A stretch of DNA of 64,000 nt from Scatophagus argus (lineage: Eukaryota > Chordata > Actinopteri > Scatophagidae): positions 2,534,055 to 2,598,054 of the forward strand of contig NC_058508.1 in assembly GCF_020382885.2 (NCBI RefSeq), in the 5' to 3' direction. The notes beneath the pieces were generated by a model. It was not told the origin of the DNA and did not search any database. It saw nothing but the letters and a program-made list of their open reading frames with translations. Numbering within the stretch: the first letter of the stretch is position 1; every line of letters starts with the position of its first letter. Positions 4,701 through 60,736 of the stretch are shown here, piece after piece. The position numbers were made by a program, and so were the translations under genes.

Positions 4701-7700
4701 GTCGTCAAGGCTGCTCAATTAGCCCTCTCCTCTTTGCAATTTACTTGGAGCCTCTGAGCCAATGGATAAAACAAAATGAAGAAATAAAAGGGATAGACAT
4801 AGAGGGGGATGAACAGAAAATAGCACTATTCGCAGATGATGTATTAGTATATCTGACGCAACCCACTGAATCTCTTCTGGCACTCATGTCAACTCTTGAG
4901 GACTTTGGCCTATTGTCAGGCTATAAATTGAATGTGAAAAAGACACAGGTCCTCACTTTTAACTATGCTCCAGATCAAACTATTAGAGAACGCTTCAAAC
5001 TAAAGTGGGATTCAAAATCCATGAAATATTTGGGAGTGAATCTACCTCAGGACTTAGATCAACTGAAGTCTATAAACTATGATCCATTGATTTCAAAAAT
5101 AAAATCAGATATTGTAAGATGGAACTTAATCCCGTTCACAAGTCTAATTTCAAGGGTAGAGGTGATCAAAATGAATGTTCTCCCAAGGTTCTTGTATTTA
5201 TTCCAAAGTCTGCCAGTAAAAGTAACAGATAAAGAATTTATAGAATGGGACAGAATCATCTCTCGTTACATTTGGCAAGGAAAAAGACCACGGATAAGAT
5301 ACGCAACTCTTCAACTTCCCAGAGTTAAAGGAGGACTAGCCCTACCCTGCCTTAAGAGCTATTATCAGGCCGCCCAACTAAAAACTATGTGGACCCTGTG
5401 TAGTCCTGCCTACAGGGCGAGATGGAAAGACATTGAAGGCCACACATCCAGTATTCCAATACAAGCTATAATAAATGACAAAAAACTGAGAAAACATCTT
5501 AATGAGGAGCTAAATCCATGGTTAGGAGTATCTCTTAATATTTGGCTTGAGATTATATCAAAGAATAACCTGACAGAGCAGAGCAGGCTACTGCGATGGA
5601 TTGCACATGATTCGGATTTTACACCTAATACATTGGATGGGAGCTTCAGTAGATGGGGACGGGGTCCAACAATATTTTGGGAGCTTTTTAAGAAGAAGAC
5701 GATTAAAAGTTTTCAAGACCTAAAGGATCAATTTGGCTTGAAAAAACAGGATTTTTACAGATATTTACAGATGCGGCATTATATGGAGAAGACTATAAAA
5801 AAGTCTAGTGTGGATGAGGTAGAATCAGGAATTATTAAAATATTTGTTTTAGCATATGAATCGGATCAGGGCAAGAAATTAATCTCAAAATTGTATAAAG
5901 AGGTGGAGAATTTAAAGGGCTATAATACATTCTATATAAAAGAGAAGTGGGAGAGGGAGGGGGGAGAGAGGTTATCAGAAGAGGAGTGGGAAGAGATCAA
6001 TGAACAGCAATGGAAGACAACATGTTCCCTCTCATGGAGAGAATATGGCTGGCAAAATATAGTCAGATACTTTAGTACACCAGCACAACACAAATCTATA
6101 GATACGAGATGTTGGAGACTATGTGGAGAAGATCGGGCGAATCATTTTCATATTTTCTGGGAGTGCGCCTCTATCATAACTTATTGGCAAGAGTTAAAGA
6201 AAAGCATGGAGAAAATTCTGAAAGTGGACCTTCCGTTTACATTTGTGGGTTTGTACTTGGGAACAGGCAACCAGAGAATAACTAGCTCAGGGGATAAATA
6301 TTTATTCAGGACAATGTTAGTGGCGGGTAAAAAAGCCATCACCAGGAAATGGCTAAAAACGGAGGTACCTAAAATTGAGGATTGGGTTGAAGTGATGCAT
6401 AATATTTTTATAATGGAAAAGTTGACTTTCTCAGTTAGATTACAATCAGAAAAATTCAAGGTCTTATGGAATAACTGGGTGGACTTTGTAACACCATTTA
6501 GAACTGATTTCATTTGGTAAAAACAATGTATCTTATGGACCCCCTTGGTTCTGGCTACACATGTTAAATGTTCAACGTATAAAGGATTGTATTCGGCATT
6601 TTCCTTCATCAGGAGTGAACAGTCTGTACAGGGGGGGAATAAGATTGAGGATGGTAGAGAAAAATGTTCTCATATGTAATATACCGATTTAAGTTTTATT
6701 TTTATTTTAGTCTGTTTAGATTTATGAACCCTGGTGTGAAGCATTTGTAGGTTCTACTTGTATGTGAATGGAATAATGCTGAATGGAATCAATAAAAAGT
6801 AAATGAAAAAAAAAAAAAAAAGAAAAATCTTACTTCCTCCCTTGACAGGAAGTCCATCGGGTCATGCCATGGGAACTGCAGCAGTCTACTACACCATGAT
6901 GTCATCACTCTTTGCCTTAGTACTGAAGGAAGAAGGACATCAAATCAGAAGATGGTAAGATCACCTTTATTCACTGTATAACTCTTCTGTGCACTGAATG
7001 TCAGGGTAGTAACATGTATCTGTCCCACAGGTGTATGCGTGTCTCATTGTGGACGCTGTTCTGGTGTGTACAGGTGTGTGTGTGCATTTCCAGGGTCTTT
7101 GTCGCTGCTCATTTCCCACACCAGGTCATCACAGGAGTTGTCATAGGTATGGACAGAGCACATATTGCTCCCTTCAAGTCATGATAAAAGTTGGGAAATG
7201 ACAGATATTACATTTTTGAGGTATTCTTGTTTAACTGCCATAGCCAAAGCAAGACTCAGATCTGAAATAATCTAAAAGAAATCTGTTAAATAACTGCTAT
7301 TGTTAATAATTTCTTAAATCCCACCAGCAAAGCATGCAAATATTATTCTTTTTTGTACATTAATATATATGTTATATATAGAAGACCACTCACTTGTATG
7401 AAAACAAACAAGGCTAAGAGTCTACAGCCATGCTAGTGATGCTGTGAAGCCATACATAAACATAATTGTGTTTTGAGCTACATGCTAATGTAATCATAAT
7501 GACAATGATAATGATAAGTTGATGTGTAGGACTTGTAACGCAGCCCAAACCAGAGTCAACATTGTCAGCTGAGGCTGGTGGGATTTTCACTAATTTGCAG
7601 ATATTTTGCAGTATTGGTAACTTGAAATCATAATTAGGAAATAACTTTGCATAATTTTCACTTTTAAAGACTTTTGAGACTCTTTTTCAGAATTTGTAAC

Positions 7701-8547
7701 TTGCAGAAACTTTGAAGAACACTGTGGTAGTTACATGCTGCTAGCAAAATGTGCTGCAGGCATTCTTGCCAATACAAGATCATATTCTCATTATAATTGT
7801 GTTTACATTATATCATACTATTTTTTTTTGTCATAGTGGTCACATGATAGCAGAAATGGATGCCTATAATACATCCTGTCTCCTCTCTTGCATGACTGAG
7901 TATAATATTATCAAAACATGTCAAATCAAGGTTTAAAAACGTATTTACATGTTATTCCACAGTAAACTGTAACACCATTAAGGAATAAATTAAGGAATGA
8001 AAAACCAACCTCTTCTCTCCCAGGTATCCTGGTAGCAGAATCACTAAGCAGGACCCAGCATATCTACAAGGCTGGCCTACGATCTTACCTGTTCACCTCA
8101 CTGCTCCTCCTCTCCCTGGCTCTCCTCTTGTACCTGTTCCTCCAGCTGGCAGGCATCGATCTCCTCTGGAGTGTGGAGAAGGCTCGGTGCTGGTGCCACC
8201 AACCAGAGTGGGTCAGTGTGGACACCAGTCCCTTAGCCAGCTTGTTTAGGAACACTGGAACTCTATTGGGTCTGGGCCTGGGGCTTCACTATCCTTTGCA
8301 TGCACACACCAACAGAGTGGTATTTGCAAAGGGGACTGAGGGCGCCATCTACAGACTGATCTGTTTAAGTGCAACCCTGGTGCTGCTGCAGTTATTCGAC
8401 ACTGCTTTTAGGCCACCTGTCCACGTCGGAGCCTTATTCTACCTGCTGTCATTTTGTAAAAGTGCCACTGTGCCTCTGGCTACTGTATCTATTGTTCCAT
8501 ACTGTGTCACTGCAGCACTGGGATTCAAGAGACGGAAGCTGTTATGA
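1784..8547 (+). CDS. g6pc: Glucose-6-phosphatase catalytic subunit (G6PC1 type), five coding exons
   Basis: Coding exons are 1784-2001, 2103-2212, 6849-6954, 7031-7146 and 8024-8547. They total 1074 nt and 357 aa, the length of human G6PC1, and exons 2-4 (110, 106 and 116 nt) match the human sizes as I remember them. The enzyme is a multi-pass ER membrane phosphohydrolase that releases glucose from glucose-6-phosphate in gluconeogenesis and glycogenolysis. Phosphatase-superfamily active-site residues are visible: Arg79 in GERPYWW, His115 in SPSGHAMG, Arg166 in SRVF and His172 in AAHFPHQ, each four below the human numbers. The C-terminus RRKLL resembles a dilysine ER-retrieval signal. ATG 1784 was chosen because MDLLHSSG aligns with the human start region; the GTG at 1778 is unlikely. 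Intron 2 carries a 4.5-kb LINE. All frames are intact. Fish can have several g6pc paralogues, so the exact paralogue letter is open. Confidence 0.95.
2274..2289 (+). repeat. Left target-site duplication of the L1 insertion
   Basis: The 16-base direct repeat GAAAAATCTTACTTCC occurs here and again, perfectly, at 6822-6837 after the element's poly(A). It marks target-primed insertion of the LINE between 2290 and 6821. Confidence 0.92.
2474..2722 (+). CDS. LINE ORF1: 82-aa putative single-pass membrane protein
   Basis: This small frame fills the usual ORF1 position upstream of the endonuclease. It encodes a polar 38-residue N-terminus and then a long hydrophobic stretch (about residues 39-65, containing [20 protein letters not shown]). 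A Cys-containing, basic tail follows ([17 protein letters not shown]). No coiled coil, RRM or CCHC knuckle, as expected of mammalian-type L1 ORF1, can be seen. Its stop overlaps the ORF2 start as ATGA (2719-2722), an arrangement suited to termination-reinitiation. It may be the true ORF1 of this family or the surviving tail of a longer one. Function unknown. Confidence 0.6.
   Translation: MDNDYSVEGPLPLGGRAYPSEWTCHQDSARVKMQTPRKEVLLLITSLSVIVFVSMFGYLMFMAVCQLCSIRGKQRREELENQ
2719..3369 (+). pseudogene. LINE ORF2, N-terminal endonuclease part, ended by a frameshift
   Basis: The frame starts at ATG 2719 (or ATG 2725) and encodes 216 residues of an APE-type endonuclease. Visible motifs are SYNVNGI near the start, LLQETH, NVYAPPG, WGGDLN and SRIDYF near the end. 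The enzyme nicks target DNA for target-primed reverse transcription. It stops at TAA 3367-3369 within a TATATATA run. The next codons of the same domain ([10 protein letters not shown], with the catalytic SDH) continue in frame 2, so one extra base or two missing bases broke the frame. Confidence 0.85.
3368..6520 (+). pseudogene. LINE ORF2, reverse transcriptase and C-terminal part
   Basis: This frame continues ORF2 after the frameshift. It is open from before 3440 and runs more than 1000 residues to TAA 6520. From the ATG at 3440 it holds a Lys/Glu-rich helical linker (about residues 20-150). The reverse transcriptase follows: [14 protein letters not shown] (about 233-246), [41 protein letters not shown] and the catalytic FADD (about 464-467). 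A C-x3-C...H-x4-C motif lies near residue 891-909 (CWRLCG...HFHIFWEC). No internal stop occurs, so the single lesion at 3360-3368 is the only visible break in ORF2. Confidence 0.88.
6822..6837 (+). repeat. Right target-site duplication of the L1 insertion
   Basis: This second perfect copy of the 16-base target site follows the poly(A) run. It is followed by the last 11 bases of g6pc intron 2, ending in CAG at 6848, so it now supplies the pyrimidine tract and a possible branch point (CTTAC) for exon 3. Confidence 0.92.
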
Positions 8548-19700: not shown

Positions 19701-22700
19701 ATACAAAGAATCGCCTATAAAATTATATTTCGAATAGTGGTGTAGCGAAAGTAGAATTTAAAGATACTCTGTTACAAATGAAATCCTTGCGCTGAAAATA
19801 ACAATAATAATAATTATGAAAAGCATGTAAACATTATTGTCAAAGCTGCTGCTACTCTGACAATACAGCAGCCAGTGTCTTCTAAACACCGCACTTATAC
19901 TTTAAGATGACATCATTACCGCTTCTATTTACTAGAATGTGATGTACCTTTTACTTTTTTACTCTTTTAGACTTAGCCTACTTATTAATGTCAAGATTTT
20001 TTTAAAAATGATTATTTTCCACTTTCTGTCCCAGTTTGGTCAGGTTTAGATAATGTAACTGCTTGGTTTGGCTGAGGAAAAGGACACGGTTTGAGTTCAA
20101 ATAGATGATTATACAGCATTAAGCATGTGAAGGCTTTCTAAAAGGGATTTCTTGAGCTTAATCTGACAATACAGCCATTGTCTTCTTAACATCAAACGTT
20201 TAGATAATATCATTACTAATTTTATGCAAGGCCCCCAGTTTTTATGGGGGGTTGTTGGGTGCAGCCAGGCTGTAGTGATGGGACATTTTACATTTTAAGG
20301 AGGTCACTGTTGTCATGGCACTCTCTGGCTCAAACCGGGGTCTCTTTTGTGTTAATTTTCATGACGTTATATTCATCTCTTTCCCATTTTTGTACGGCTG
20401 CTCCAGGTTCTACAGGCGAGGTGACCGCAGTTTCCGCAAGGCAGAGAAACAACGGCTGAAAGCAGAGAAGCGTCTGCTGAAGGCAGAGGTCAAAGAGATC
20501 CGCAAACAGCTGAGGATGGAGCGGCGGGGCATACAGTGGAGCTCCTCCAACAGAGATGGAAGCTCCTCCCCTGTCCTTCTGCAGCCTCGAGCCACCCAGC
20601 ATAACAGTCCTGAGTAAGTTCGAAAGAAAAAGATCCAAATTCGTGGAGTACACACAAGAAGAGGTGTTTTAGCTCAGTAATTCCCACAGATGGACACATC
20701 TGCAATTGCCTGAGGGTTTGGGGAAAGATTGTGGAGTAGATCAAGAAATTTTAAAAAGTATTGATTATAAATTCAGTTACATTAAAATTATAGTCTAAAA
20801 GCTGTAACACCTGAACGCAATGTTTTAGAAGTGTATGAAGGTTAGCAAGGGAGCAAGCATAGAAATAGAACTGTTGTAAAAATACTGATAAATATTTGAA
20901 ATATATTGCAAAAAGTAGAGGAGAAACAGTTAAAAACGCTAACTAAAAGTACTGGACAACCATTAAAAACAGTTATTTTAAATTAAAGGATAAATGGATA
21001 AACTGATCTGCTCAACGTGGGGCCCATGTACCAAAGTTTGCCCACCAAAAGGCTCTGTTTACTCGCCCAGTGTTTCTAGCGAGAATTGAATAAATGATAT
21101 TGCAGTTTGTGCTGTTTTCTCATTTGTGAGATGAAATGCTCTTTAAATATGTATGATCCCTGATTATTAAATATTTTTTCAGAATGTGAGCATGGTGGGT
21201 GCATAATAACAATACAGTTATAGGTTTAACTTTTACCCAGGGCCCAGCATAACCTTTCAGATGTGTCCCTCCAAAGGAAAAGTTCGTGCACCTGTATAAT
21301 AGTCAGTCAAAAATGCTAACCTAAAATGATGAATAAATGGATAAATTGACAGTTAAAAGTAATAGATAAACCAGTTAAAAATGTTAACTAAAAGTAAACT
21401 AAGGGATAAGTGGTGAAATTCCTGAAAATAATTGATAAAAACCTGAAATAACTTGCTAAAAGGTATGTGGATAAATGTTTGAAATAAAAGTTACTGGGGT
21501 TACATGAGTTCATCTGACAGGGCTGTTGGGTAGCAGCTGACAAAAAGGTTGTGAACCACTCTTTTAGGTAATTCCAGGTGCATTTTTTAAATATAGGCTG
21601 ATCTGAATATGCTGGGAGAACAATGAAAAATGAAGTTCTTCATTTCTTTCCCAGACGTCCAAAGCGCCCCTGTCCCTTGGTGGCTCCAGCCATGACAGCT
21701 GCATTTTTGGATGAGAACCTTCCTGATGGAACCCGACTGCGTCCCGGAACCAAGTTTATCAAGTACTGGAAGATGAGGAACACTGGAACAGTCAGCTGGA
21801 GTGCAGATACCAAGGTAAAGAAGTCAACTGTTGTCCAGTCTGCTCTTTTCTCATGCAGTCATTTAAATAAGTAAGGTTCATCTTCTCGAGTGCAAAGAAA
21901 TTTTGAGCTAATAGTGGTGCTGGGCAACAGGTCACAGTGGGACCAAAAATATATAATGTTCTGGACACCATGAATAACTTAATCTAGATTTAGTCATTTA
22001 TCATATTGGTCATTAGCATTTTTACAGGCTTAGCCACGCTAGCGGCTCAGGTTTGGTGATGGTAGCATTGGTCAGTGTCTGTACATCACTTTGTTCCAGA
22101 TTGAAATATCTCAGCATATATTGAATAGATTATTAATACATTTTGTACCAGTGCTTGTAGTTGTCAGAAGATGAACCTTTACAACTTTAACCAACTTTAA
22201 AGTGAAATGTCTAGCAGCATAGCAGATGTCTCACTAGCTAGTCTCTGAGGTCTGTTCCTATATAGCACCAGTGGCTTTTTTTCAGTTGTTCCCAGTGAGG
22301 AGAAAGTATATACAGCAGCTGCCTAGAGGAAAAAGTGCTGCACCTAGGGTTTTTGTTCAGAGTGCTCTGCCTTTTTGTGCAGTCACTTCAAGCTCTTAAA
22401 GAGATGAAAATATTGGAGCTTTTTAGAAAGGCGCTTCTCTTTTCAAGTAAACCATCATGTATGGATGGCGCAGAACTCTTGCCACCCTAGTGACCCCAAA
22501 ATGAACTGTCTGAACTTTATCAGACAGAGACAGAAAAATAAACAACCTCTGATAAGAGTGCTTCATCTTTTGCCTTGTTTGCTCCCTGCAGCTGAAGTTC
22601 ATGTGGGGAAACCTGGCGGTGGGATCTGGGGACCGTTGGAGAGAAGTGTCTGTTCCCTTCCTCCAGCCAGGACAGGTGAGAAGGCAACCTGGAAAAGTAT

Positions 22701-31700: not shown

Positions 31701-32222
31701 TGGAAAACTGTAGGGAGACCTGAGTCTCCTTACCACAGCATCTGAATTTTTTTATCATTATGGTGCCCTTTAAAAAGGTCAATCATAGGTAATTTGCATT
31801 TGTGTGCATTTTTTCACATGCAGTCAAATGTTGATATATAGCTGCAGTCTGTCAAACTATTTGTGAGCATCATTTGACAAGCTCAATATGTCACGGACCC
31901 TGACTTGCTTCCATATTCTGCACCATGTTATGATTTCTCTGACTAAACAGTTAATAAAAGGAAGGGGTTTAGCGAATGGTCAGTCGTTATCGTGGTCTGT
32001 TTGTATGTGGTGACATGTTTGGTTTTATTTATATATATTTCTTTGCAGCCTCCAGTGGACGCGTCCACCCAGGAAACTATGATGGCTGTGTTGGTGGAGA
32101 TGGGTTTTGGGGACCGGCCGCTGAACCAGCGGCTGCTGACCAAATACAACTACAACCTGCTGGATGTGGTCAACGAGCTTGTTCAGATGACCGACAATGA
32201 CTGGTACTCTACACGCTACTGA
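10710..32222 (+). CDS. nbr1: NBR1 autophagy cargo receptor, 23 coding exons
   Basis: Coding exons: 10710-10811, 13704-13766, 14660-14678, 14798-14820, 15591-15779, 18120-18197, 18335-18615, 19338-19463, 20407-20613, 21655-21814, 22592-22675, 22850-23035, 23233-23349, 24299-24374, 24549-24659, 25749-25919, 26839-27111, 28786-28966, 29128-29379, 30074-30156, 30334-30412, 31326-31419, 32049-32222. They sum to 3129 nt (1042 aa; human about 966), with phases consistent throughout. NBR1 links ubiquitinated cargo to ATG8 proteins in selective autophagy. Domains: PB1 (1-90, acidic DEENEE), poly-Gly linker (about 186-210), ZZ zinc finger (about 240-275, CxxC pairs then SHDPSH), Lys/Glu coiled coil (about 295-340), four-tryptophan domain (about 368-490), conserved YIPSVDLLTAQDLLSFELLD, LIR YIII (796-799), amphipathic helix (about 960-980) and UBA (986-1042). 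Oddities: a GC donor at 14821, 19- and 23-nt micro-exons, and the Gly expansion. Confidence 0.95.
10812..13703 (+). other. nbr1: nbr1 intron 1 (2.9 kb)
   Basis: Large first intron between a GTAAGA donor and an acceptor after a CT/GT-rich tract (about 13632-13700). I see no other exon or recognisable element; open frames at 10929-11282 and 12476-12935 look like chance. First introns often carry enhancers, but nothing specific can be named. Confidence 0.6.
14165..14560. repeat. Probable dispersed non-autonomous repeat in nbr1 intron 2
   Basis: The stretch opens with TCCAATATGCAGGATTTAGTG and contains a TCTGTAGATA...TAAGGTAACAATAAC block and a TGGAGATTATAGACGAATGAAA block. This matches, from memory, a short dispersed repeat common in fish introns. 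Boundaries and class are uncertain. Confidence 0.35.
14821..15590 (+). other. nbr1: Non-canonical GC-AG intron of nbr1
   Basis: Coding exon 4 ends ...GCTTTGAAG and is followed by GCAAGT, not GT. The acceptor TTTTTTTTCAG at 15590 is strong and the frame is exact (EALK then SAARQGNRL, matching the human PB1 domain). GC-AG introns are a minor but genuine class, usually with an otherwise strong donor as here. Confidence 0.85.
15780..18119 (+). other. nbr1: nbr1 intron 5 (2.3 kb)
   Basis: No further exon is recognised between the PB1 linker exon and the TPPAWFTSYMEK exon. The exon sequences on either side join in frame at a place comparable with the human protein. The content is AT-rich single-copy-looking sequence. 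Confidence 0.55.
18412..18480 (+). repeat. nbr1: Coding GGA repeat (poly-glycine) in nbr1 exon 7
   Basis: An imperfect (GGA)n tract, interrupted once by TCAGCA, encodes about 18-20 glycines split by Ser-Ala. It sits in the linker between PB1 and ZZ, which is not Gly-rich in human NBR1 as I recall it. Such tracts are length-unstable. Confidence 0.9.
20870..21500. repeat. Degenerate internally repetitive AT-rich block in nbr1 intron 9
   Basis: Variants of a unit like GTTAAAAATGTTAACTAAAAGT and GATAAATGGATAAA(C/T)TGA recur several times between about 20925 and 21430. The stretch ends near AGGTTGTGAACCACTCTTTTAG, which resembles the end of a dispersed fish repeat. It is probably a decayed tandem or transposon-derived block; boundaries are approximate. 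Confidence 0.4.
23690..24005 (+). repeat. Dispersed repeat, copy A, in nbr1 intron 13
   Basis: It shares GAAGACCACATCTATAGTGC (23692-23711) exactly, and several further blocks (CTTTCTGATGCA, CTCTTGACTAG, AGTCCCTGCA), with the reverse complement of 26025-26305. This looks like a short non-autonomous DNA transposon; no transposase is present. Confidence 0.6.
24899..25240 (+). mobile_element. tRNA-derived SINE (V-SINE type), copy 1, in nbr1 intron 15
   Basis: It begins with ACGGTGGTGCGGTCATTAGC and a GGGTTTGAGTCC stretch, corresponding to pol III A- and B-box regions of a tRNA-like head. The conserved central part follows (TGTCTGCGTGGGTTTTCTCC, CTCCCACAATCCCAAAAACA), then a tail ending GACGGATAAGCGGGTGTAGAAA. 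Compared with copy 2 it has lost a few bases in the central and tail parts. Open frames over it are shadows. Confidence 0.8.
25682..25704 (+). repeat. (CA)n microsatellite in nbr1 intron 15
   Basis: Short CA dinucleotide run, about 11 units, lying roughly 45 bases before the acceptor of the exon at 25749. Confidence 0.9.
26025..26312 (-). repeat. Dispersed repeat, copy B, inverted, in nbr1 intron 16
   Basis: Reverse-complement homologue of 23690-24005. The 20-base match at 26284-26303 is perfect, and other blocks agree in order. The pair lies about 2.3 kb apart in one pre-mRNA in opposite orientation, so they could pair as RNA. Confidence 0.6.
29637..29998 (+). mobile_element. tRNA-derived SINE (V-SINE type), copy 2, in nbr1 intron 19
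   Basis: Well-preserved copy. The tRNA-like head has GTGGTGCAGTGGTTAGCAC (A-box region) and GGTTCAAATCC (B box). The conserved central domain reads TTTGCATGTTCTCCCTGTGC...CTCCGGCTTCCTCCCACA. The tail ends GGATAAGCGGTATAGAAAATGGATGG. It is more complete than copy 1. The reverse-strand open frame 29817-30164 is a shadow. Confidence 0.85.
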
Positions 32223-40156: not shown

Positions 40157-43100
40157 ATGACATCAAGACAAAGACGCAACTCAGAAAACACAGCAGGCTG
40201 TCCCACCTGCCAGGGCACTGGACGTATACCCAGAGGTGACACACACACATCAACATACACACATCTGTGTCATCTGCTCTAGTTTTTATTTTAAAGATGA
40301 ACATTCTTTAAAATCTAATAATTAGTCTATTATTGCTAAATTTGTTCGTCAATTTTTCTTCGAATTTTTCTTTTTTTAAGTGTATATCTCATTGACTGTG
40401 CATACATATGGACAGCATAAGAGCTCTTTAAGAGCGAAGCCAAAACATCTTGATTGCCCCCTAGTGGCTGGCTGCAGTACAGTTCATAAAACCTCTCCCC
40501 CCTTCTTGTATTAAGGTTTTCCTGGAGATGCACACCCACAAAGCAGATAAGTTAACTAACTTATTTCTGCTCAAAGAGTTACTTGAGGGAGGTAAGAAAA
40601 GAGTCCAAATACAATGGTGGGTGGCTGTTGAGTGTGGGGAGCTGTGATCAGATAGTCCAAACAGAAGATCCAGCAAGGAATCCAGGGGATGGGGGAAAAC
40701 ACACAGGTTATCTCAGGAACAAGGCGCAGCTGGGAAGGCAACAGGGAGTGAAGCAGTGAACCTTAAAGCGCAAGAGAAAAAAAAACATGTTAGGATTCTT
40801 AAAAACCTGAACATGGCAAAAAATACCCGCAAGAGCCTGGAGTTTGTACCACTGAGTAGTAAAGCACAATCTGGCAACAATGGAGAGGAAGAGATGCTCG
40901 TAAAAAGCAGCAGGCAGGAGGTGGGGTGGATTGGAGAGATGAGGTGCAGCTGTGCAGGTGAGAAGACTGAGGAGAATGTAAGTCAGTCCTGCCGACCTCT
41001 GCATACACACACACACACACCACACCACACCAGGAAGAGAAGAGACCGCAACTGAAAACCCTGGCACCATGTTAGCAGATGAGAGACGGGACAAACTAAA
41101 AACTTAAAGTACTTAAAGTACGGATCAAATATTAATTTTTCCCAACACTACAGTCCACATTTAAATACTAGTAATTTAAATGAGTTCTAGTGGGATAATT
41201 GGGTACTTTGAGCTGAGATATGATGGTGCTTGACCATTTAGGGCTTTGTGTGTGAGGAAAAGTATTTTGGCTGAACAACAAGAAAAAGCTACAAAACGAA
41301 CATTGTGTGACTGCTGAAGAATACAACAATTTCTTTAACAGTGGCTTTATGTTAAGTAGAGGTTGACTGATAAATTTACTGGGCCCTATGCCATAATGGG
41401 GGGTATCCAACCTCTCGCAATATCAAATCTGCTCCCACTTTGTCACCTTGTCTTTTAAATCATTTACCATGTGTGTTACAGGTCAAGAGAACAAACTGCT
41501 GGCTGTCATCCCCTGTAATGACCAGAGACTGAGACCCAGGCACACGTGAGAAAGCAAATACTCGACACTCTTTATGTACATCTATGCAGAGGTTCATTTT
41601 GACCCATTCATATCTGAATATAACCCAACTTTTCTGACAGAATATTTCTTATGCCAGATCACACACAGGTATGCTGAAATTACCTTGAACCCAAGAACTA
41701 AACTCCTGTAATGTAAAAAGCATTTTGACTTCACTTCAGTTACTTCTCACAGTCAAAGTGCAACATGAGTTTTAGATTCAAAAGGTCAAATGTGTGTTAT
41801 TGTGACATCCACTACCATTAAGTCATCAATAGGAGCTGGTTCATGAAGGGAAACAGAAACACTAATCAGGCGAAAGTTGACCTGCTGCTGATGCGTACGT
41901 CACTATGTTGTTCTGAATGGGTCCCCCCACCCCAGCATCCTGACAGGTTGTTTCATTGGACTGCCATGGATGGATGATGCCTTGATGTGGTCTTCTGATC
42001 TGCTCCCTTTTCTTTCAGGAAGCTGTATGTTGCTGTGTCTGTTGGTGTGTGCCTCCTGGTCTGCTCCCTGGTGTTGTTTTTCCTCTTTCCTCGCTCTGTC
42101 CTTCTTTCTCCAGTAGCCGTCCAGTCATCCTTTGTTTACTTTACTCAGGAGGGCGTCCAAATTAATGTCACGGTGAGTGAGCAGTAGTGATAAAGAGGAA
42201 TGAAGGCTTTGTTGGCAAAGGTGTGAATGGAAGGATTGATATTTATTTACAAAATAAATAATTTTTTTTTTTTTGATTGTTAAAACTCTTAACAACAATA
42301 GAACTTACTCTCATTGTAGGATGATTTATTATTTGTTATTCAAATCACAATTGTGTTTCTTTTCAGAATGTCCTGAACATCACCAACCACAACTTTGTGG
42401 AGGTGCAAGCCTACAATCTGACCTTGCAGGCCCTGAATTATGACACGTTGGTGGGAAGAGTTACCATTAGCAACGTCACCTCTGTCAAACCTCTGTCTGT
42501 CAAAATGGTGAGCGATCACAGCCTCACAGTAACAGAAAGTATCATGGAGGGATGGAGGACTGTGCAGTATTCTGTATCTGAGCAAAAGGACTCTTTAGAA
42601 TAGTTACTGCAAAAACCAACACATGGCAGTTTGCAGCTGAGACACAAGATACAGCAGCATGTCAGTTAAAGCTGGTGTTGACATTTTTCATACAGACGCT
42701 GATTGCCATGAAAGTGAAAGCTGGCCAGGATACGTACCTGTTTACATTAAAACATCAACACGTGCAGATTCGCTTTTACTAAAATTCAATCTGAAGCTTC
42801 TATGAAAATAATTCCAGCAGTGGAGGATTAGAAATGGATTGATACAATCAGTTGAACTCCACTTTTCTGTAATAAAAAAAGGTGGAACATTATATATTTC
42901 AGTTGATTTTGTTTCCACTTGCCACTTTGTCATATACGTATCAGAAAAATACTCTTATTGACATTAATGAATGTAACCTGTGAACAATGTGAATACTTTT
43001 GGAGTCATGAACAGTTTTGAACTGCTTCTGCTTTTTCCCTTCCTTCCAGTACTCATTTGTGATGTCCATCCTGGTGACTGACCGTGGTATTAGGTAAACT

Positions 43101-46770: not shown

Positions 46771-47849
46771 TCACCACTGCTGGGTGTACTGTAAAGACTG
46801 TAAGATAAACAGGCATAAATACTCTGAATATACTGAAAAAGACAGGTGATCCTTTTATCAGTCGCAGAAAGACGCAATGTGCTCATACTTACTGAGTATC
46901 TGTTGGGGACCCTGGCTCTGTTGTGGACAGTTGTCTTTAAGTCACCCTTACAGTGGGGACACTGGCCTTCAGCTGGAAATAAACATTAATGATTGATTTA
47001 TTAACACATTTAGCCTAATATTTTTGGCAAAATCACAAGAATGACTAATAACAATGTTGAACAGCGTTCATGTAGTTGAACATAGTTTGCAGATCTCATT
47101 CACTCTGCAAAACTACATTCTCACTCACTAAAATGCATTTTGCACTGTGATGCACTTGTTTTAGGCTGCAAAATGTTAAACATGGGCAACAGATACTGAA
47201 GGCAACCCGATGGCCATCTTAATCAGGACATTCAGAAAAGATAATTGAGAAGTTATTGTTTTATTTATGGACAATGGTTATGTTAAAGAACGTGAAAAGG
47301 TAATATTCAGCCGTGACTAAGGACAAAATCCACTGTCGTCAAGTGCTTGCTCCTGGGGGAATGTTGGGCTCTCTGTATTGCATAAATTAATTAAAGAGTT
47401 TGGTCTAGACCTGCTCTAATTGGAAAGTGTCATGAGATAACTTTTGTTGTGAATTGGCGCTATATAAATAAACTGAATTAAATTAGACATTGCTAAGCAC
47501 TTTTAAGGAGTATGTCACTAACTGGCTTGTCTACACAGACTTTCAGTTACATCATGTGTTGTGTGAACAAGGTGCGATCTTCAAACAAATTTATCGTTTT
47601 AGTAACCGGCCAATAACACGTTCCTGGAAAAGCACAGTGCGCTCAATTACACACATAAATAATTAGCTTCCCATACCGGGAGTTGAACCCGGGCCGCCTG
47701 GGTGAAAACCAGGAATCCTAACCGCTAGACCATATGGGACTTCGACACGACGAGTTTCTAGGACAACCATCAGCATGTGGCCGATGATATCTGCGACAGT
47801 GTGGACTAGTTTGTGTGGCCCTTCATGAGTCCTTCAAACCACTGTGACA

Positions 47850-47891
<42 letters not shown>

Positions 47892-50800
47892 TGTGGATAC
47901 GCAAGTCTGTCTGGTGATTAGTGTTCAGAACGATGATGAAGACTGTTGCTAACTTTACCTGAGATTCAGATGAGTGACGAGTGAGCAGGATAGCGGTTAA
48001 TACGGTAATTTGTTTACATATTTGTTGTCACTTTTTAGAAGGAAAATTATTGGTTTGCTTATCAAAATACGCAAAATTCTATTATATTATAAAAATACAT
48101 CTAATGCTATTGGACTAATTAGTTGGGGCAATGACAACCGTGTTTCTACCTGGTATTAATATAATAATATTGGCACAGCGGTGCTTCAAGAAAGTAGCCT
48201 ACTCAGATCCTTTACTTGAAGGTGCAATTTGTAGGATGTGGTAAGAATTTTTGTTTAAAACATTCAAAAAATGTACCAAAATTATCAGCAGAATAAATAG
48301 TATATGGCGCTTTGTCAGACTGCATAAAGTTGCTTTTCTCAGCTTTGCCCTGTAGTGCCACTGGACGCTTTTTAAAAGTCTGAAACAGCTGCAATGTAAT
48401 CCTCTGTGGCAACTGTCGAAGATACACGCCACTGAAAGTGCTTTTTGCCACCCACAGGCTCAGACTGATATTCTCAGGGTCTGATAACATCAGGGAAAGG
48501 ATCCTGAGTGAGAGAAACCTTTTTGTTAACATTCTTATCTTACAGGACACACAGGTCTTGCTCTGAAATCTCATGAGAGGAGAGCTATTACTTTATCTAG
48601 ACTGTTAAAAAAAAAAAATCTCAATATTATGCCATGAGTTTGGAAATAAATTCTTGCTGGAAAGTCCCTCTCAAGACAAGACAAGACCACTGAAGAGCGA
48701 AAGACCATCACTGATCAGCGGAAGCAGCAGGATTAGTGAGTGTGGACAGCTGTACAGTAGTCATCGTGGGACATGAATTAGTGGACAATCAAATGTAAAC
48801 AGCTGTTTCCGATGCAGAGATTTGGCTCCCTCTATGGTGTGACACAGTTTTATTCCCACTTTTAACCTGATCGTTTACAGATGGCAACAGGTGAGGGCAT
48901 GTTTACAAGGTTTCTGCATGTTGTAGCTACTGAGGTACCATTCACAAATACATTATGATTACTATTTTACTGGAAAAGTGTATGGGCTTCTCACCTCAGT
49001 TTCACATGTAGTCTTTCTAAAAAAAAAAAGATATGTCTTGTTCCTTGTTATTATATCCAGGTTAAAGATAAGGATACCTGTCTGCTCTTGTGTCATGTTT
49101 GATTCAGTTGAATTGTGGCTGGTCTCAGAGCCCCTCTGTAGCAGCTGTAAAGAGAGGTAAACAGAAATAAACAATCCAAATACAGTGAAAACAATGGACA
49201 AGAGCATAGTTACAAGAACATACTGTGCTGTGTTACCAAATAATTAGAGACTAAATCAAATACACAGACACTAGAGAATAAAACATCTCTACTTTATGAG
49301 AACCAATCACAGAACATCAGCGAAATGTTCTTGCTCTTCTTGTGCCCTTGTGCTTAAACAGTTTGTGACCTTTTTAGAGTTTTCTACATTTCTTAAAATG
49401 ATTCAAAACATCAACGGCTTTTCACACAAGTCATGAAAGTAGACAAAGAGAACCCGATCAAACAAATGAGACAGAAATATTATACTTGTGAGTTTATTTA
49501 TTCAAGAAAATTAACCATTAGTACATATATATGAGTTGCAAAAGTGTGTGAACGATTGCTTCACTATCTGGTGTGACCCCCCTTGTGCAGCAATTACAGC
49601 AACTAAACATTTCTGGTAACTGCTGTTCAGTTGTCTACAATTTTAGTCCATTCTTCAGTATAGAACCGTTTGTGGGTTTCCTCACATGAACCGCTTGTTT
49701 CAGGTTCTTCTACAACATTTCAATTGCCAGTTTCTCCTGAGATTCACCTCACTGACAGATGTCCTGACATTTTCCTTTAGAATTCACTGGTATTAATTCA
49801 GAATTCATTGTTCCATCAATAATAGCAAGTCATCCTGGTCCAGAGGCAACAAAACAGGCCCAAGAAGGGATACTACCTCCTCTATGTGGATGGGATGAGG
49901 TTCTGATGCTGGAATGATGCTGATGCTGGGGGGTTTTATTTCCCCCTTGCCACTCTGTCATGCACACTTTTGTTGTTCAGTATTCTCCTGATGGTGGATT
50001 CATGATCATCAGTTCCTCGGTAGTTACCCTGGGTTCCTTTGTGACCTCTCGGGCTGTTACACGAGTAGCTTCTTTGTTGGTGGACTACTCCTTGGGGGGA
50101 TTGTGCACAATCTGTCTGACCGTGAATTTGTGGAGTCCAAATTCTACAAATATGGTTTTGTAACTTTTTCCAGCCTGATGAGGGACAACAAATATTTTTT
50201 TAAAGTCCTCAGAAAGCTACTTTGTCTGTGCCACCATACACTTCCAAAAACATGTACTGTGAAGATCAGACTTTGACTCCCTCTTTTTTTATTTATTTAT
50301 TTATTTTTAAAATTAAACAGGGCACTGAATGACACCTGAGTCTCATCCCATTGATTGGACACGCCTCTGAACAGATGGACTCAAATTTGACTTTCAAATT
50401 AACTGCTTATCCCAGAAGGTCACATACTTTTGCAATTGACAAATATGTAATCTTGGAAAAACATTTTAAAAGCTTTATATATGTTTTTATTATATACATC
50501 GTGTGAAATTGTTACATTTTTATATCCGTATTTATTTAACATAAGACTGAGATTCCTTTTGTGGTGGCGTGCATGGGGTCTGCTGGGAGCAGCACTGGTT
50601 GTACAGTGGAGTTGAGAGGTCTCTCTAGGATGGAGCTTTCCTACCTGATGATTCTCCCAGTCTCTTCCAGTCTGCAGTAGAGCTCAGCAGACCACTCCAT
50701 AGAACAGGGCTAATGCTATCACAGACTTGACAAAGGTCCTGAGAAGTGCCCCCGTGTACTCCAAAGGACCTCAGTCTCCTCAGCAGGTACAGTCTGCTCT

Positions 50801-52870
50801 GGAGCTTCCTGAACAGTGCAGTGGAGTTGTCCATCCAGTCCAATCTGCTGTCAAGGTGACCACCTGGGTACTTATAAGAGTCCACTATCTCCACAGTGTC
50901 CATTCCCCTGGCTGTTCGCTGGTGTTGAGCCTGAGCGAGTGTCCATGCCTGAGGAAATCCACCTTTCCACAGTTCATTTGACATGGCGTGACAGCTGTCA
51001 TCTGAACCAGGGTGTGGACCAAACAACTGACCCTAAACTGCATGATTTCAGAAGTTAAATCATTAATAAATCCACCAATGAATGTGAAGCAGTTGATCAG
51101 GAAGTGATTCTTTTTAACTGTGTCAGCCATGTATATTTTTATGCAAATCATTTGCACATCAAGCATCCATTAGTGTTTAAGAGTGAGCCCACAATGATTT
51201 CATCCTGAATCATTTCTGTTTAAGATGCATCCTTTTCTTCCTGCCTCTGCCTTTTAGTCATTATTCATAACATGTAGTCTAATGACGCTTAGAACAATAT
51301 AATAAGTTATTTCGTCACAAGCTTTTCGTGACACCAAAAGACATAAAGATACAATTCAGAAGCATCAAAGTGCTTCAGAAACTTTAGTTTGTAAAATTTC
51401 CCAAGAAACCCTCCCCTCAGGACATCTGAGCCACGGCTCTGTGTGTCCCAGTAACCCAGTAATACCAGCATCCAGTTGCAGTGTGTTTTTCAGTGACTTT
51501 GCTATCTGGTTTTTACATTCAGATGATCTTGGAACAAAACAGATTTTCTGAAGATAAATTTAAGACTTGGTGAAATCAGTGATTTTGGATTTATTTATGT
51601 CTTGTGTGTAGTTATTTGATGTTAATGCTATTTGACTCAGGTCTTGAAACAATAATAATGCGTAACCATTAAATGCAAATGAAACAAACACATTTTTTGC
51701 GCCTGAACACATCCTGGAAATCAGTAACAGGATGCAAGCTGTCAGATTCACACAGGAAACAAGTTTGACCCCATGCTGGGGTGTCACATGTCGCTACTCA
51801 GTTTCCATCAACCCTGCTGTTCAATAATAAAGTAGACGAGACAGACTGCTGCGTCACCATCAGCAGCACACATCATACGACGACGGTTTTTGAAGAAACG
51901 TCTAAAGATGCTTACATGCACCGTGGAAGTTAACTTAATTCTGCTGCACTGTTGTGTGATCCACCACAGTCTGTGAATCAGGCTATATATGTAAAGATAT
52001 ATTTAGCTGTTTAAAAGATGAGAAGTCAAATGCAAATATTTGCCAAAGAAACTTTGATTTGGATGCTGAATTACTGAAACACTGTCCACTACGTTCCTGT
52101 TGTTTGTTTGGTGTCCAGCAGAGTTTTGGCAGGTGATGCGTTTTTGTAAGATCAAACACAAGATGTCTTAACCTCGAGGAGACACCGGATTGCTAGATTA
52201 TTGGAAAGTCTAACAATAGAATATCTTGTTAGTTTTATGCCTTTACGTACGCGAGTTGTTTTGAGATTTCAGCTCAGCAGAAAAAGTAACTCGGTCCACT
52301 TTTACCTTGCAACTTTAAAGTGATCAACACATTAATGCATCACTAATCACAAACCACAGATATAACATATACATTATTCTGAAATGGGCCATCCTGCATG
52401 ATGAATACTTTCACTTTTGGTATATTTTGATGCTAGTACTTTTGCACAGTACTTTTACTTCTCCCATTTCTGAGGAAAATATAGACAGCAGGGGCAGCTT
52501 AAGACCCACTTCCACGTTCTCCTCTCCAAAAACACAGAGTCAGTGACATGTCTCATTTAATATTAATTTAAAGTAAATTGGCAAGAAATATGAGCATCTT
52601 TATATATCGTCTTGAAAAGCAGTAAAACCAGCTTTTAAAGACAGGATGTGGAGGCAGAGTGAGACACTCTAACAGTGTCTGTGGAAATCAAATGAAATGA
52701 CTCAGGTAAAGGATGATTACGTCAAATCGTACTTAGGTACAGTACCTGAGAAACCTGGCAATCTTTCTTATCAGTAGCTAGAACACATTATTTACCTGCT
52801 GCTGGTCTCTGGCCATCCTGCGGTCCAGAGCATTCTGACGCCGTCTGGCCTCCCAGTGCATAGCTGACAT
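46771..52870 (-). CDS. ccdc200: Small gene matching CCDC200, four coding exons, 79 aa
   Basis: Reverse-strand exons in transcript order: 52870-52796 (75 nt), 49144-49078 (67), 46972-46893 (80) and 46788-46771 (18 nt including TGA). They total 240 nt with phases 0, 1 and 0 matching at all three joins. Each exon is flanked by consensus sites (GTAAAT, GTATCC and GTAAGT donors; TTACAG, TTCCAG and TTTACAG acceptors). The N-terminus MSAMHWEARRRQNALDRRMA and the C-terminus YTQQW resemble the remembered ends of human CCDC200 (HWEARRRQ near the start, YIQQW at the end), which lies between TMEM106A and ARL4D in human. The middle differs: an S/T/Q-rich part and then CPHCKGD, with one CxxC pair. The Q/P-rich stretch of the human protein is absent. 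No membrane segment or known domain. Function unknown. The assignment rests on end motifs, synteny and exon phases. Confidence 0.75.
47340..47490 (+). repeat. Decayed 3' end of a fish dispersed repeat in ccdc200 intron
   Basis: CATGAGATAACTTTTGTTGTGAATTGGCGCTATATAAATAAACTGAATTAAATT is the characteristic 3' tail of the same broad family as 45110-45390, with a diverged body upstream. Confidence 0.55.
47668..47739 (-). tRNA. tRNA-Glu, anticodon TTC
   Basis: On the reverse strand a 72-base gene begins TCCCATATGG and ends TATGGGAA, giving a full acceptor stem (TCCCATA/TATGGGA). The A box TGGTCTAGCGG, an anticodon arm with TTC in CTGGTTTTCACCCAG, and the B box GGTTCAACTCC are all present. It matches the vertebrate tRNA-Glu(TTC) pattern essentially throughout, has no intron and does not encode CCA. 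The nearest downstream run of four T on that strand is at 47626-47629, about 40 bases away. It lies within a ccdc200 intron on the same strand. Confidence 0.95.
47852..47890 (+). repeat. (GT)n microsatellite
   Basis: About 19 uninterrupted GT units about 110 bases upstream of the tRNA-Glu gene in the tRNA's own orientation. Confidence 0.95.
49380..50480 (-). mobile_element. Decayed Tc1/mariner transposon in ccdc200 intron
   Basis: TTGCAAAAGTGTGTGAAC at 49536-49553 and its inverted counterpart at 50418-50435 (16 of 18 positions agree) lie near the ends. Reverse-strand sequence from about 50240 to 50000 keeps nucleotide-level resemblance to the start of a Tc1-like transposase (GACAGATTGTGCACAAT; CATCAGGCTGGAAAAAGTTAC). 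The reading frame is broken many times and the left part is rearranged. It cannot encode a transposase. Confidence 0.7.
50560..51005 (-). mobile_element. Decayed LINE fragment (reverse transcriptase 3' part)
   Basis: The reverse-strand frame includes VEIVDSYKYPGGHLDSRLDW, then LFRKLQSRLYLLRRLRSFGV. This is typical of the region after the catalytic motif in teleost jockey/L2/CR1-type LINEs. Frame changes and stops are present. It is 5' truncated and part of the ccdc200 intron. Confidence 0.75.
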
Positions 52871-54721
52871 CCTGGCATTAACAGAGCAAAATTCACTATG
52901 GGATCATCTGACTTTGTAAACTGCATGGCTCCAGCAGTGCTGTGCTGTGATGTGTTAAGTAACTAAAACAACTTTGTGGTTCGCTCGCACATTAGGTGGC
53001 ATCAAGAATAATGCAGAATATATAACAACAGAACTGCAAAACAAACTTTCATTGTTAATGGGTGTGTACAGTGTGTTAGCACACAATTGCTTAAGCACAC
53101 ATTCATCTAGTACAGTAAATGCATTCCTTCAGGGTCATGTTTGTATTCACCAAATAAATTTAAGTTCGGTGGTCACTCTCTTTTTAGCTCCAGATTGGTC
53201 TCCACGACTCCTGAGTAGTGTTAATATTATTAACAAAAAATATGACCAAATATGTTCATCATATTGTTTTTCTAAGACTAAGAAGAGACAATGAAAAGGC
53301 AGCAACATGGCCATTAAATACTAACTGTGACAGTATCAACATGCCATACTGTTGAAGGACAAAAGACAAAATTTAAATGTCATTTTAAAAATAAAGATTT
53401 TTTTATTTTTGGGTTGCTGAACCCTGCTGGTTCAAAATGGGATCATGTCCCACATCTGGATGCATTACTTGGCACATCAAACCACCAGACAAGACACTTT
53501 CTGCAGAGCTGCACTCTTGATCCTCTTGTCTAACTTTGGGCACAAAATCAAATAAGTGCATCTCCCAATCTGTAAAACTTTTATTTTGAGTTTTGAGGGG
53601 TTGCCAGGGCACAAGCTTATGTGAAACATGTGTCCATTAGCCTGTATTGTTTATGATGCTGTTTTGTCCTATTGAAATGTACTGGAAACCACATGCCATC
53701 TGGCTCACATCCAGAGCTCACCTCAGACCACACCCCAGTGAAACTTTCAGCCAGAGAGGGCAGTGCAACACTTTCAGCCTGGTGTTAAGTTTCTGTTTGA
53801 CATTAAAAGTCAAAAGTGAGGAGGTGCCTTTACAATATATTTTTTTCTGACACCACATGAATATTTAGATATGCGCCTGCTCGTCTAACTGCATCATATC
53901 CATTTAACCTGATACAGTTTAACTCCCAAGCACTGCTGTCAGCTCCTCTGATTACTGATCTCTTTCCTGTGTTACCTGCTCTCCATGCCACCTGGGACAG
54001 ACCGGATACCTGTCACGGCCACTCGCCAGTAAGGCCCAGCTTGTTAACATTACGATGAGTGCTTATCTTTATCACTGTGTCATGCATGTACGTCCAGCTT
54101 GCATTAGTTTGCAAGATGGTTACATGTAACTTCTGTCAGTCAGTTTGTGTCAATAACGAAATTCATATATTATTCATAAATGTGATTGCGACCCTCTGTG
54201 CAAATCAAAGTTAACACAGTTTTTTTAACCAACTGCTGCACATCCTTTAAAATGTTGTGCTTTATTTGATTCCATTCATTGCGTGTATGCTGTTTTTCAC
54301 TTTATTATAATTAGTATTCACTCATCTGCATTCTGTGTATGTTATTTCAGCCTTACTTATGCTTGTTTTTCCACCTCATTTTGCATTGATTATGGCATCC
54401 TATCCCTGTTTTCATGACTCTTCATTGTATCATTATCAAATGGACATTCATTTCCTGTCCCTGTTTTTATGTTCCCCATGTGTCTCTTTTATGTGAAGCA
54501 CTTGATGCATGTAGCTTCTTTGGAGTAAAGAACTTTGAGCTGCATTTCTTGTATGACATGTGATATTCAAATTGTTCATTATTATTACTATCAACTGTAG
54601 ATCAAAAGCATTGTGTTGTTGTTGTTTTTTTATTTTGAAGTCAATTCATTAAAATATTACTCATTTTCCACTCATTCCAAAACAAGGAATAGCGAGCAGG
54701 TATAGAAGAGTGTTTGCTCAC

Positions 54722-59145: not shown

Positions 59146-60736
59146 ATGGGGAACCAGTTAACAGAAATTGCACCCACCACCCCGTTCCTCCCTGGCTTCC
59201 AGTCTTTACACGTAGTGGTGATTGGTTTAGACTCTGCGGGGAAAACGGCCCTCCTCTACAGACTCAAGCTGCGGGAATTTGTTGAGACAATCCCCACCAA
59301 AGGCTTCAACATGGAGCGGATTAAAGTACCCATGGGGAACTCCAAAACCAATACCACCACGTTCCAGGTGTGGGACGTGGGCGGTCAGGAGAAACTGAGA
59401 CCCCTCTGGAAATCGTACACCAGGAGGACGGACGGGCTGGTGTTTGTGGTGGATGCGGCTGAGCCGGAGCGCATGGAGGAGGCCAAAGTCGAGCTCCATC
59501 GTATCACCCGGTCGGCGGAGAACCAGGGGGTGCCAGTGCTGGTTCTGGCAAATAAACAGGACCTGGAAGGAGCCGTGTCAGCCTCAGAGGTAGTTATTGT
59601 TACATGAAAGGCTTGGTACAACCATAAGGATTTCATAGTTAAAAAAATACCCACATTTTTTCAATTTCAAGGTTTTCCTCTTTGATATGATTATCATTAT
59701 TCATTGTTGTTGTTGTTAGATTTAAATGTTTTATAGACTTTGCTGTGTTCATGCGACTGCTAGTCTGATGTTTTCGGGACCTCACCCAGACAAGCAGTGT
59801 GTGAATGCAGAATGAGCCCATGTGCGAACAGAGCAGCTCTCTTGAGTTGAGAATGAGTGAGAGACGTGTCGATGACGTTTCATGGAGAGTAGCTGCTCCA
59901 TGCTTTTTATTGTTTTCCACACTTTCCGTGATACTGTGTGTACATCCAAATACACGTAGTATTGTTATCAGCTCAGAAAGTATCGTATCAAGTGAGTCCC
60001 CCTTGCACACTACTCAGGTGTCATCCATTGTCTAAACCAAACAGAGTATTTCCAGTAGATCACATGGATGAACTCGTGTGCTACGTGTGTGAGAAGCCAT
60101 TTCTGGACAACGTTCAGCCGTCTTTCACTTGACCTTGTCCACGGTTGTCATCCACAAGGCTGTCTCCCCATGGTGCTCATGTTGCATTGTTTACATGTCA
60201 CCTACGCCAGACACACATTAAGTAGTTAATCAGCATCTAGTTGGCTATGTCACTCTATTGGTTTGTTTGCGTAGTGCACATCTGCTGGTCAATGAAGTTT
60301 GGAAATGGAGAACTTAAACTTGACAATTGCCACAATTTGCCTTTAAAGTAGATTGTGGACACCTTTGGTTAATTGTTTAGTCTACAAAATGGCAGAAAAT
60401 TGTGAAAAATTTCCCAAAACTCATCTGGCTTCTTCATTTTGTGTGCGTGTACATGATTCATGATACATGATAGTGAAACATCCTCAGTCTGCAGTGATTT
60501 ATGGCTTCAAGGTGATCATATTTGCTACAGTGAGCGTCAGGTTGTGACCGTCTTGTGCGTCTGTCTTTCAGGTGGAGAAGGTGTTGTCTCTCCATGAGTT
60601 GAGCTCATCCACACTGCACCATACGCAGGGCTGCTCAGCCCTGGATGGCCAGGGCCTGCAGCCTGGCCTGGAGAAGCTCTATGACATGATCCTAAAGAGG
60701 AAGAAAATGCTCCGACACAGCAAAAAGAAGAGATGA
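59146..60736 (+). CDS. arl4d: ARL4D, ARF-like small GTPase, two coding exons
   Basis: Coding exons 59146-59589 (148 codons) and 60572-60736 (54 codons and stop) give 202 aa (human ARL4D 201). ARL4 proteins act at the plasma membrane, recruiting cytohesin ARF exchange factors, and also reach the nucleus. Visible: Gly2 for N-myristoylation, P-loop GLDSAGKT (27-34), switch I Thr51, WDVGGQE (76-82), NKQD (136-139), a Cys-Ser-Ala loop (GCSALDG) after the intron and a Lys/Arg-rich C-terminus ([13 protein letters not shown]) matching the family's nuclear signal. [17 protein letters not shown] also matches ARL4D. The phase-0 intron (59590-60571, GTAGTT...TTTCAG) splits the G domain after Glu148. Without splicing the frame ends five codons later and lacks the last G motif. 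Start context AAACATGG is good. Confidence 0.95.

Follow-up and report, generated by a model that had tools for sequence, protein, structure and literature searches.

A minus-strand exon chain in the window, by which we mean the whole stretch of 64,000 nt from Scatophagus argus that was analysed, is very probably a real coding gene, and its position and strand support well its identification as the teleost orthologue of CCDC200. To the statement as a whole, namely that this is a coding CCDC200 orthologue and that it encodes a small protein of the axoneme that docks by its N-terminus, we assign a probability of about 0.42; the gene is likely, and the mechanism is a lead. The basis in the data is the exon structure, the gene neighbourhood, and a weak resemblance of the N-terminus to a chain from sea urchin sperm.

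Exon structure and predicted product

The first-pass annotation had proposed that four reverse-strand exons chain in matching phases to 240 nt, and the in-phase translation into 79 aa confirmed this. The exons, of 75, 67, 80, and 18 nt, have AG and GT at their internal borders. The 79-aa form runs MSAMHWEARRRQ...YTQQW, and the conceptual translation of the four-exon chain reads in full MSAMHWEARRRQNALDRRMARDQQQLLQRGSETSHNSTESNMTQEQTAEGQCPHCKGDLKTTVHNRARVPNRYSYTQQW. Exon 1 (75 nt coding, 52796..52870, minus strand, as are all parts of this gene) encodes MSAMHWEARRRQNALDRRMARDQQQ. Exon 2 (67 nt, 49078..49144) encodes LLQRGSETSHNSTESNMTQEQT plus 1 nt, and has a strong acceptor and a modest donor. 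Exon 3 (80 nt, 46893..46972), which encodes (A)EGQCPHCKGDLKTTVHNRARVPNRYS and has a modest acceptor and the donor tca/gtaagt, is the least certain of the exons. The last coding exon of the first-pass annotation (18 nt, 46771..46788) encodes YTQQW followed by a stop; it uses the downstream AG of a tandem acceptor, 9 nt further than the upstream AG, which yields a 27 nt exon (46771..46797) encoding SLQYTQQW and the same stop. Solely the required frame is open in exons 2 and 3, and all three frames are open in exon 1.

The three introns differ widely in length. Intron 1 (3651 nt, 49145..52795) contains a remnant that by eye looks like a reverse transcriptase (50628-51032, minus strand), and intron 2 (2105 nt, 46973..49077) contains a tRNA-Glu(TTC) gene on the same strand (47668-47739, minus strand), besides which nothing in the window was found with Rfam at gathering thresholds. 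Intron 3 (104 nt, 46789-46892) has no stop in the exon 3 frame and, if retained, would yield a different 3' end. Elsewhere in the window, an open frame of 1056 residues (3350-6517, plus strand) resembles by eye the reverse transcriptase of a non-LTR retrotransposon and is preceded by an endonuclease-like frame (2680-3366, also by eye); these retrotransposon-like frames (2680-6517) are possibly a recent insertion.

Splice signals and comparison with chance

Splice sites were scored with a generic PWM built from assumed frequencies, so that the percentiles given here are relative to the minus-strand sites of the window. On this scale, the claim that the exons have consensus splice sites stood for the exon 1 donor and the exon 2 acceptor, both in about the top 1%, but not for the exon 2 donor, the exon 3 acceptor, the exon 3 donor, and the acceptor of the 18 nt exon, which reached the top 7–9%. 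Exon 1 and the end exon enclose 42 candidate internal exons of 30–200 nt with scores >0.5 at both sites; of these, exon 2 ranked 9 and exon 3 ranked 39. The proposed chain took rank 7 of the 20 open in-frame chains with two internal exons between these ends, and with a site-score threshold of 2 it was absent from the candidates. Splice-site ranking was thus rejected as proof of the chain, given that six other chains score higher, and splice signals together with the open frame do not by themselves raise the chain beyond chance. Since the splice signals do not single it out, the case for the gene is built on its position and on the two ends of the protein.

It is the content of the chain that lifts it above chance. 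A six-frame translation of the window contains HWEA a single time, within the candidate gene. QQW precedes 1 of the 7034 stops of the window, again within the candidate gene, and YxQQW before a stop is likewise single. Exon 1 has a GC content of 61%, compared to 39% in the region, a value reached by 0.16% of the segments of the same length; the corresponding percentiles for exon 2 (16%), exon 3 (5.6%), and exon 4 (29%) are unremarkable.

At both ends of the gene, the same scoring suggests changes to the model. An acceptor-like site with a score of 4.18 (top 2.8%) lies 1 nt before the ATG, so that the transcript likely has an unlisted non-coding 5' exon farther upstream and probably does not start with exon 1. 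At the 3' end, the upstream AG (first exon base 46797) scores 3.84 (top 3.4%) and the AG at 46788 scores 1.26 (top 9.1%); use of the former keeps the frame and adds SLQ. Because the acceptor at 46797 outscores that at 46788, the 27 nt exon and an 82-aa product ending in YSSLQYTQQW appear likelier than the 18 nt exon and the 79-aa product, and the longer version is taken here as the main form. Of the reported 18 nt terminal coding exon, therefore, the in-phase YTQQW end is retained, and the length is probably 27 nt.

Gene neighbourhood

The genes around the candidate are all on the plus strand. They comprise the C-terminal portion of G6PC1 (7966-8544; E 5.1e-46 for the best PDB match), the NBR1 exons for the Ig-like domain (21602-21871; E 3.8e-10) and the UBA domain (31947-32219; E 1.6e-6), an exon for the C-terminal domain of a TMEM106 protein (42325..42600; Pfam PF07092, E 2.1e-10), and an Arf-family GTPase (59146..59604; Pfam Arf, E 3.7e-48). 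The TMEM106 exon was taken as tmem106a by its position, and the GTPase as arl4d by its position and its N-terminus; the letters A and D are thus assigned by position. Among solved structures the GTPase is closest to ARF1, and the best 60 of its 85 PDB matches include no ARL4; we call it ARL4-type on account of the N-terminus MGNxLTE, which we take to be typical of that group. Its frame closes after some 150 codons, directly behind the residues SASE and a donor-like GTAGTT (59560-59604, plus strand). The stop behind this site suggests an intron there, in a gene taken to have a single coding exon.

The candidate lies on the minus strand between the TMEM106 exon and the ARL4-type GTPase, near NBR1 and antisense to the TMEM106 exon, which is the human order. 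Human CCDC200 (17q21) occupies the same site relative to NBR1, TMEM106A, and ARL4D and is antisense to TMEM106A, as in the fish. PMC3970959 describes two human deletions that begin in BRCA1 and take out NBR2, NBR1, and TMEM106A; in one case the breakpoint away from BRCA1 falls between exon 6 of TMEM106A and exon 2 of ARL4D. A single 17q21 interval given in PMC4657880 contains G6PC, BRCA1, NBR1, TMEM106A-AS1, and ARL4D; a table in PMC12841848 lists LINC00854 and TMEM106A-AS as aliases of CCDC200, and PMC6310952 lists the human locus among the lncRNAs. The earlier placement of the gene between TMEM106A and ARL4D was borne out by the Pfam and PDB matches of the flanking exons and by the human order in the relevant passages of PMC3970959. 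The shared place and strand support orthology to CCDC200.

Comparison with human CCDC200

The human protein, in the version assumed here, has 168 aa, the N-terminus HWEARRRQxALDRR, a Q/P-rich middle, and the end YxQQW. The fish product has sequences that fit these assumed N-terminal and C-terminal signatures, and at the N-terminus 22 of 28 fish residues are identical to the assumed human sequence. However, the fish product, at 82 aa, has about half the length of the assumed human protein (168 aa), and it lacks the Q/P-rich middle, with two prolines in its 82 residues. The Q/P-rich middle may be lineage-specific rather than defining for CCDC200. When YSSLQYTQQW was compared with the assumed human YSQLKSTNYIQQW, 1079 of 20000 shuffles did as well, and for the 79-aa form the number was 664 of 20000, so that the similarity of the C-termini is not significant.

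These comparisons divide two of the earlier claims. Orthology to CCDC200 is upheld by position and strand, and the likeness of the sequences is a lead, the human side being an assumed sequence. That both ends are the functional parts of the protein gains marginal support for the N-terminus, from the urchin chain described below, but none for the C-terminus, where the shuffles (664–1079 of 20000) leave no significant signal. Searches for relatives yielded 6 pattern matches in viral contigs and 54 in prokaryote genomes, none of which was confirmed by tblastn, as expected of a vertebrate gene.

Similarity to a sea urchin sperm axoneme chain

A phmmer search of the 79-aa product against 177,635 distinct PDB sequences yielded, with E allowed up to 10, a single match, the chain 8snb_1o (142 aa), with a marginal E-value of 0.024. 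No vertebrate chain in the PDB matched the fish product within the same limit. The structure 8SNB is a sea urchin (sperm) doublet microtubule according to PMC10973386 and PMC13066092, the latter of which cites Leung et al. 2023 for sea urchin sperm doublets. The match is limited to the N-terminus (MHWEARRRQNALDRR in the fish, YHWEALRKQRVIDRR in the urchin), and in both proteins the segment lies at most 6 residues from the start. The match starts with residue 4 in the fish and residue 6 in the urchin, and 10 of 19 residues are identical between MHWEARRRQNALDRRMARD and YHWEALRKQRVIDRRLAAM. We take Leung et al. 2023 to be the primary paper on the sea urchin sperm doublets.

Whichever of the two sequences was shuffled, 0 of 20000 shuffles attained the local alignment score of 82, and the score of 62 for the N-terminal block was likewise attained by 0 of 20000. 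In both cases the pair had been preselected as the best of 177,635, a selection for which the E-values (0.024 for the whole product, 4.7 for the N-terminus by itself) do correct. Beyond the N-terminus, 1250 of 20000 shuffles were as good, and the similarity of the fish product to the longer urchin chain is thus not significant there. With the N-terminus alone as the query, 8snb_1o was the sole match (E 4.7). It was also the best of 3 matches to the N-terminal 71 aa of the assumed human protein (E 0.15; next E 1.0). A two-row profile of the fish and the assumed human sequences gave 2 matches, of which 8snb_1o was again the best (E 0.0048; next E 1); the fish and human sequences are not independent of each other.

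Chain 1o was deposited as meiosis-specific nuclear structural protein 1 (MNS1), and MNS1 chains of other species are in the PDB. Queries with chain 1o found no other PDB chain (E up to 10; for one query, E up to 1), and 122 of its residues matched no Pfam family at the cut-off, the best being DUF7167 (E 0.4); an alignment meant to follow the chain towards a possible QQW end covers residues up to 133 of 142. Because chain 1o has no PDB match or Pfam match at the cut-off in these searches, the protein behind the MNS1 label may be an unusual one, and the label deserves a look. It is possible, although rather doubtful, that CCDC200 and 8snb_1o derive from one ancestral deuterostome axonemal protein and that their shared N-terminal helix, [YM]HWEAxRxQxxhDRR, is an undescribed docking motif for doublet microtubules.

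A short N-terminal tryptophan motif is likewise found in the ciliary NWE-module microtubule inner proteins CFAP68, CFAP95, CFAP107, SPAG8, and CFAP161, for which PMC10973386 gives the consensus [ILV]LIGNWxE. The fish product has HWEA instead of this consensus, as judged by eye, and the reading of its N-terminus as the NWE motif of seam-binding inner proteins was accordingly dropped.

Expression and promoter

The published expression data point in two directions. CCDC200 is named in PMC11179423 among the infertility-related differentially methylated genes with spermatid-specific transcripts. In a table of PMC4750114, LINC00854 stands in the row just before cluster 9, apparently in cluster 8, which holds spermatid-inhibited genes; this placing appears to contradict the spermatid expression. 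The passages of PMC11779644 on mammalian axonemes do not mention the protein. X-box-like sites for RFX occur in the window at chance level (21 seen vs 18.6 expected; 5 vs 3.0), and a single site upstream of the gene, at 53600-53613, deviates at 3 positions. The search for a ciliary promoter with an RFX X-box thus lent no support to the axonemal reading.

Proposed function and alternatives

We prefer to read the exons as those of a genuine gene, spliced and protein-coding, which would be the CCDC200 orthologue of teleosts and lie tail to tail with tmem106a. Its product of 79–82 aa would be probably largely unstructured, with the basic first ~20 residues, MSAMHWEARRRQNALDRR, as the conserved part, which is expected to form one helix. 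This helix, with its HWEA/DRR signature, might dock on the wall of the axonemal doublet microtubule or on a protein inside it, and the site of action would be sperm, perhaps also other motile cilia. A short flexible linker or tail, the length of which need not be conserved, would make up the remainder of the protein. For the gene we infer translation, and for the protein the helix, the lack of structure elsewhere, the axonemal place, and any role in motility; axonemal docking by itself we rate at somewhat below an even chance.

The alternative that concerns the function most directly accepts the CCDC200 orthologue and holds that it is non-axonemal, a small disordered protein that is, for example, associated with RNA or chromatin in germ cells, so that the urchin match would have arisen by chance in a basic, charged N-terminus. 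We regard this as quite possible. The E-values are marginal (0.024, and 4.7 for the N-terminus alone), no vertebrate PDB chain matches, the X-boxes are at chance level, and one data set apparently has LINC00854 in a spermatid-inhibited cluster (PMC4750114). However, the sole PDB match is a sperm axoneme chain aligned N-terminus to N-terminus, and one paper does name CCDC200 in spermatids (PMC11179423). A metal-binding adaptor, with exon 3 encoding a small zinc ribbon (QCPHCKGDL), would be a different function altogether, and was suggested by a weak Pfam match of residues 40–68 to DUF7351 (E 0.0081). But this match has 16.4 bits against a cut-off of 31.2, that is, below the Pfam gathering score, and the entire protein has two cysteines; we discarded this idea as extremely improbable.

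Two further alternatives concern the gene model. Exon 1 and the gene could be right and the 3' end wrong, with read-through or with other exons in place of exons 2 and 3, such that the C-terminus is not QQW. The low rank of exon 3 (39 of 42) and the six chains that outscore the proposed one fit this possibility, as do the frame of exon 3, which continues without interruption across intron 3 until a stop immediately ahead of 46761 and would give ...YSLYSTPSSGEEVK, and an acceptor at 46832, the second best of intron 3 (score 3.33), which implies an intron of 60 nt. It is nevertheless unlikely, given that QQW stands before just 1 of the 7034 stops in the window, and the QQW ending agrees with the assumed human C-terminus. 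That the whole chain is a chance series of open stretches, with no gene or with a non-coding RNA of the kind as which LINC00854 was once filed, is very improbable: 20 open chains are possible between the same end exons, and the human locus was once listed as an lncRNA (PMC6310952), but the position, the strand, the single end motifs, and the composition of exon 1 all speak against it.

Implications

The fish CCDC200 and the axonemal lead appear to be unreported, and the CCDC200 family itself is known but uncharacterised; a literature search, outside of which lay most subscription journals and the bioRxiv preprints, found neither a functional study of CCDC200/LINC00854 nor a fish gene for it. 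Provided that the orthology is correct, CCDC200 is no mammalian oddity, but a gene with a coding frame that dates back at least to the bony vertebrates. The sea urchin match adds a checkable idea of its function, that of a small doublet-microtubule protein of sperm. Should the common origin with the urchin chain be true, vertebrate sperm or cilia would have an unrecognised component, encoded by a gene that was formerly classed as a long non-coding RNA.
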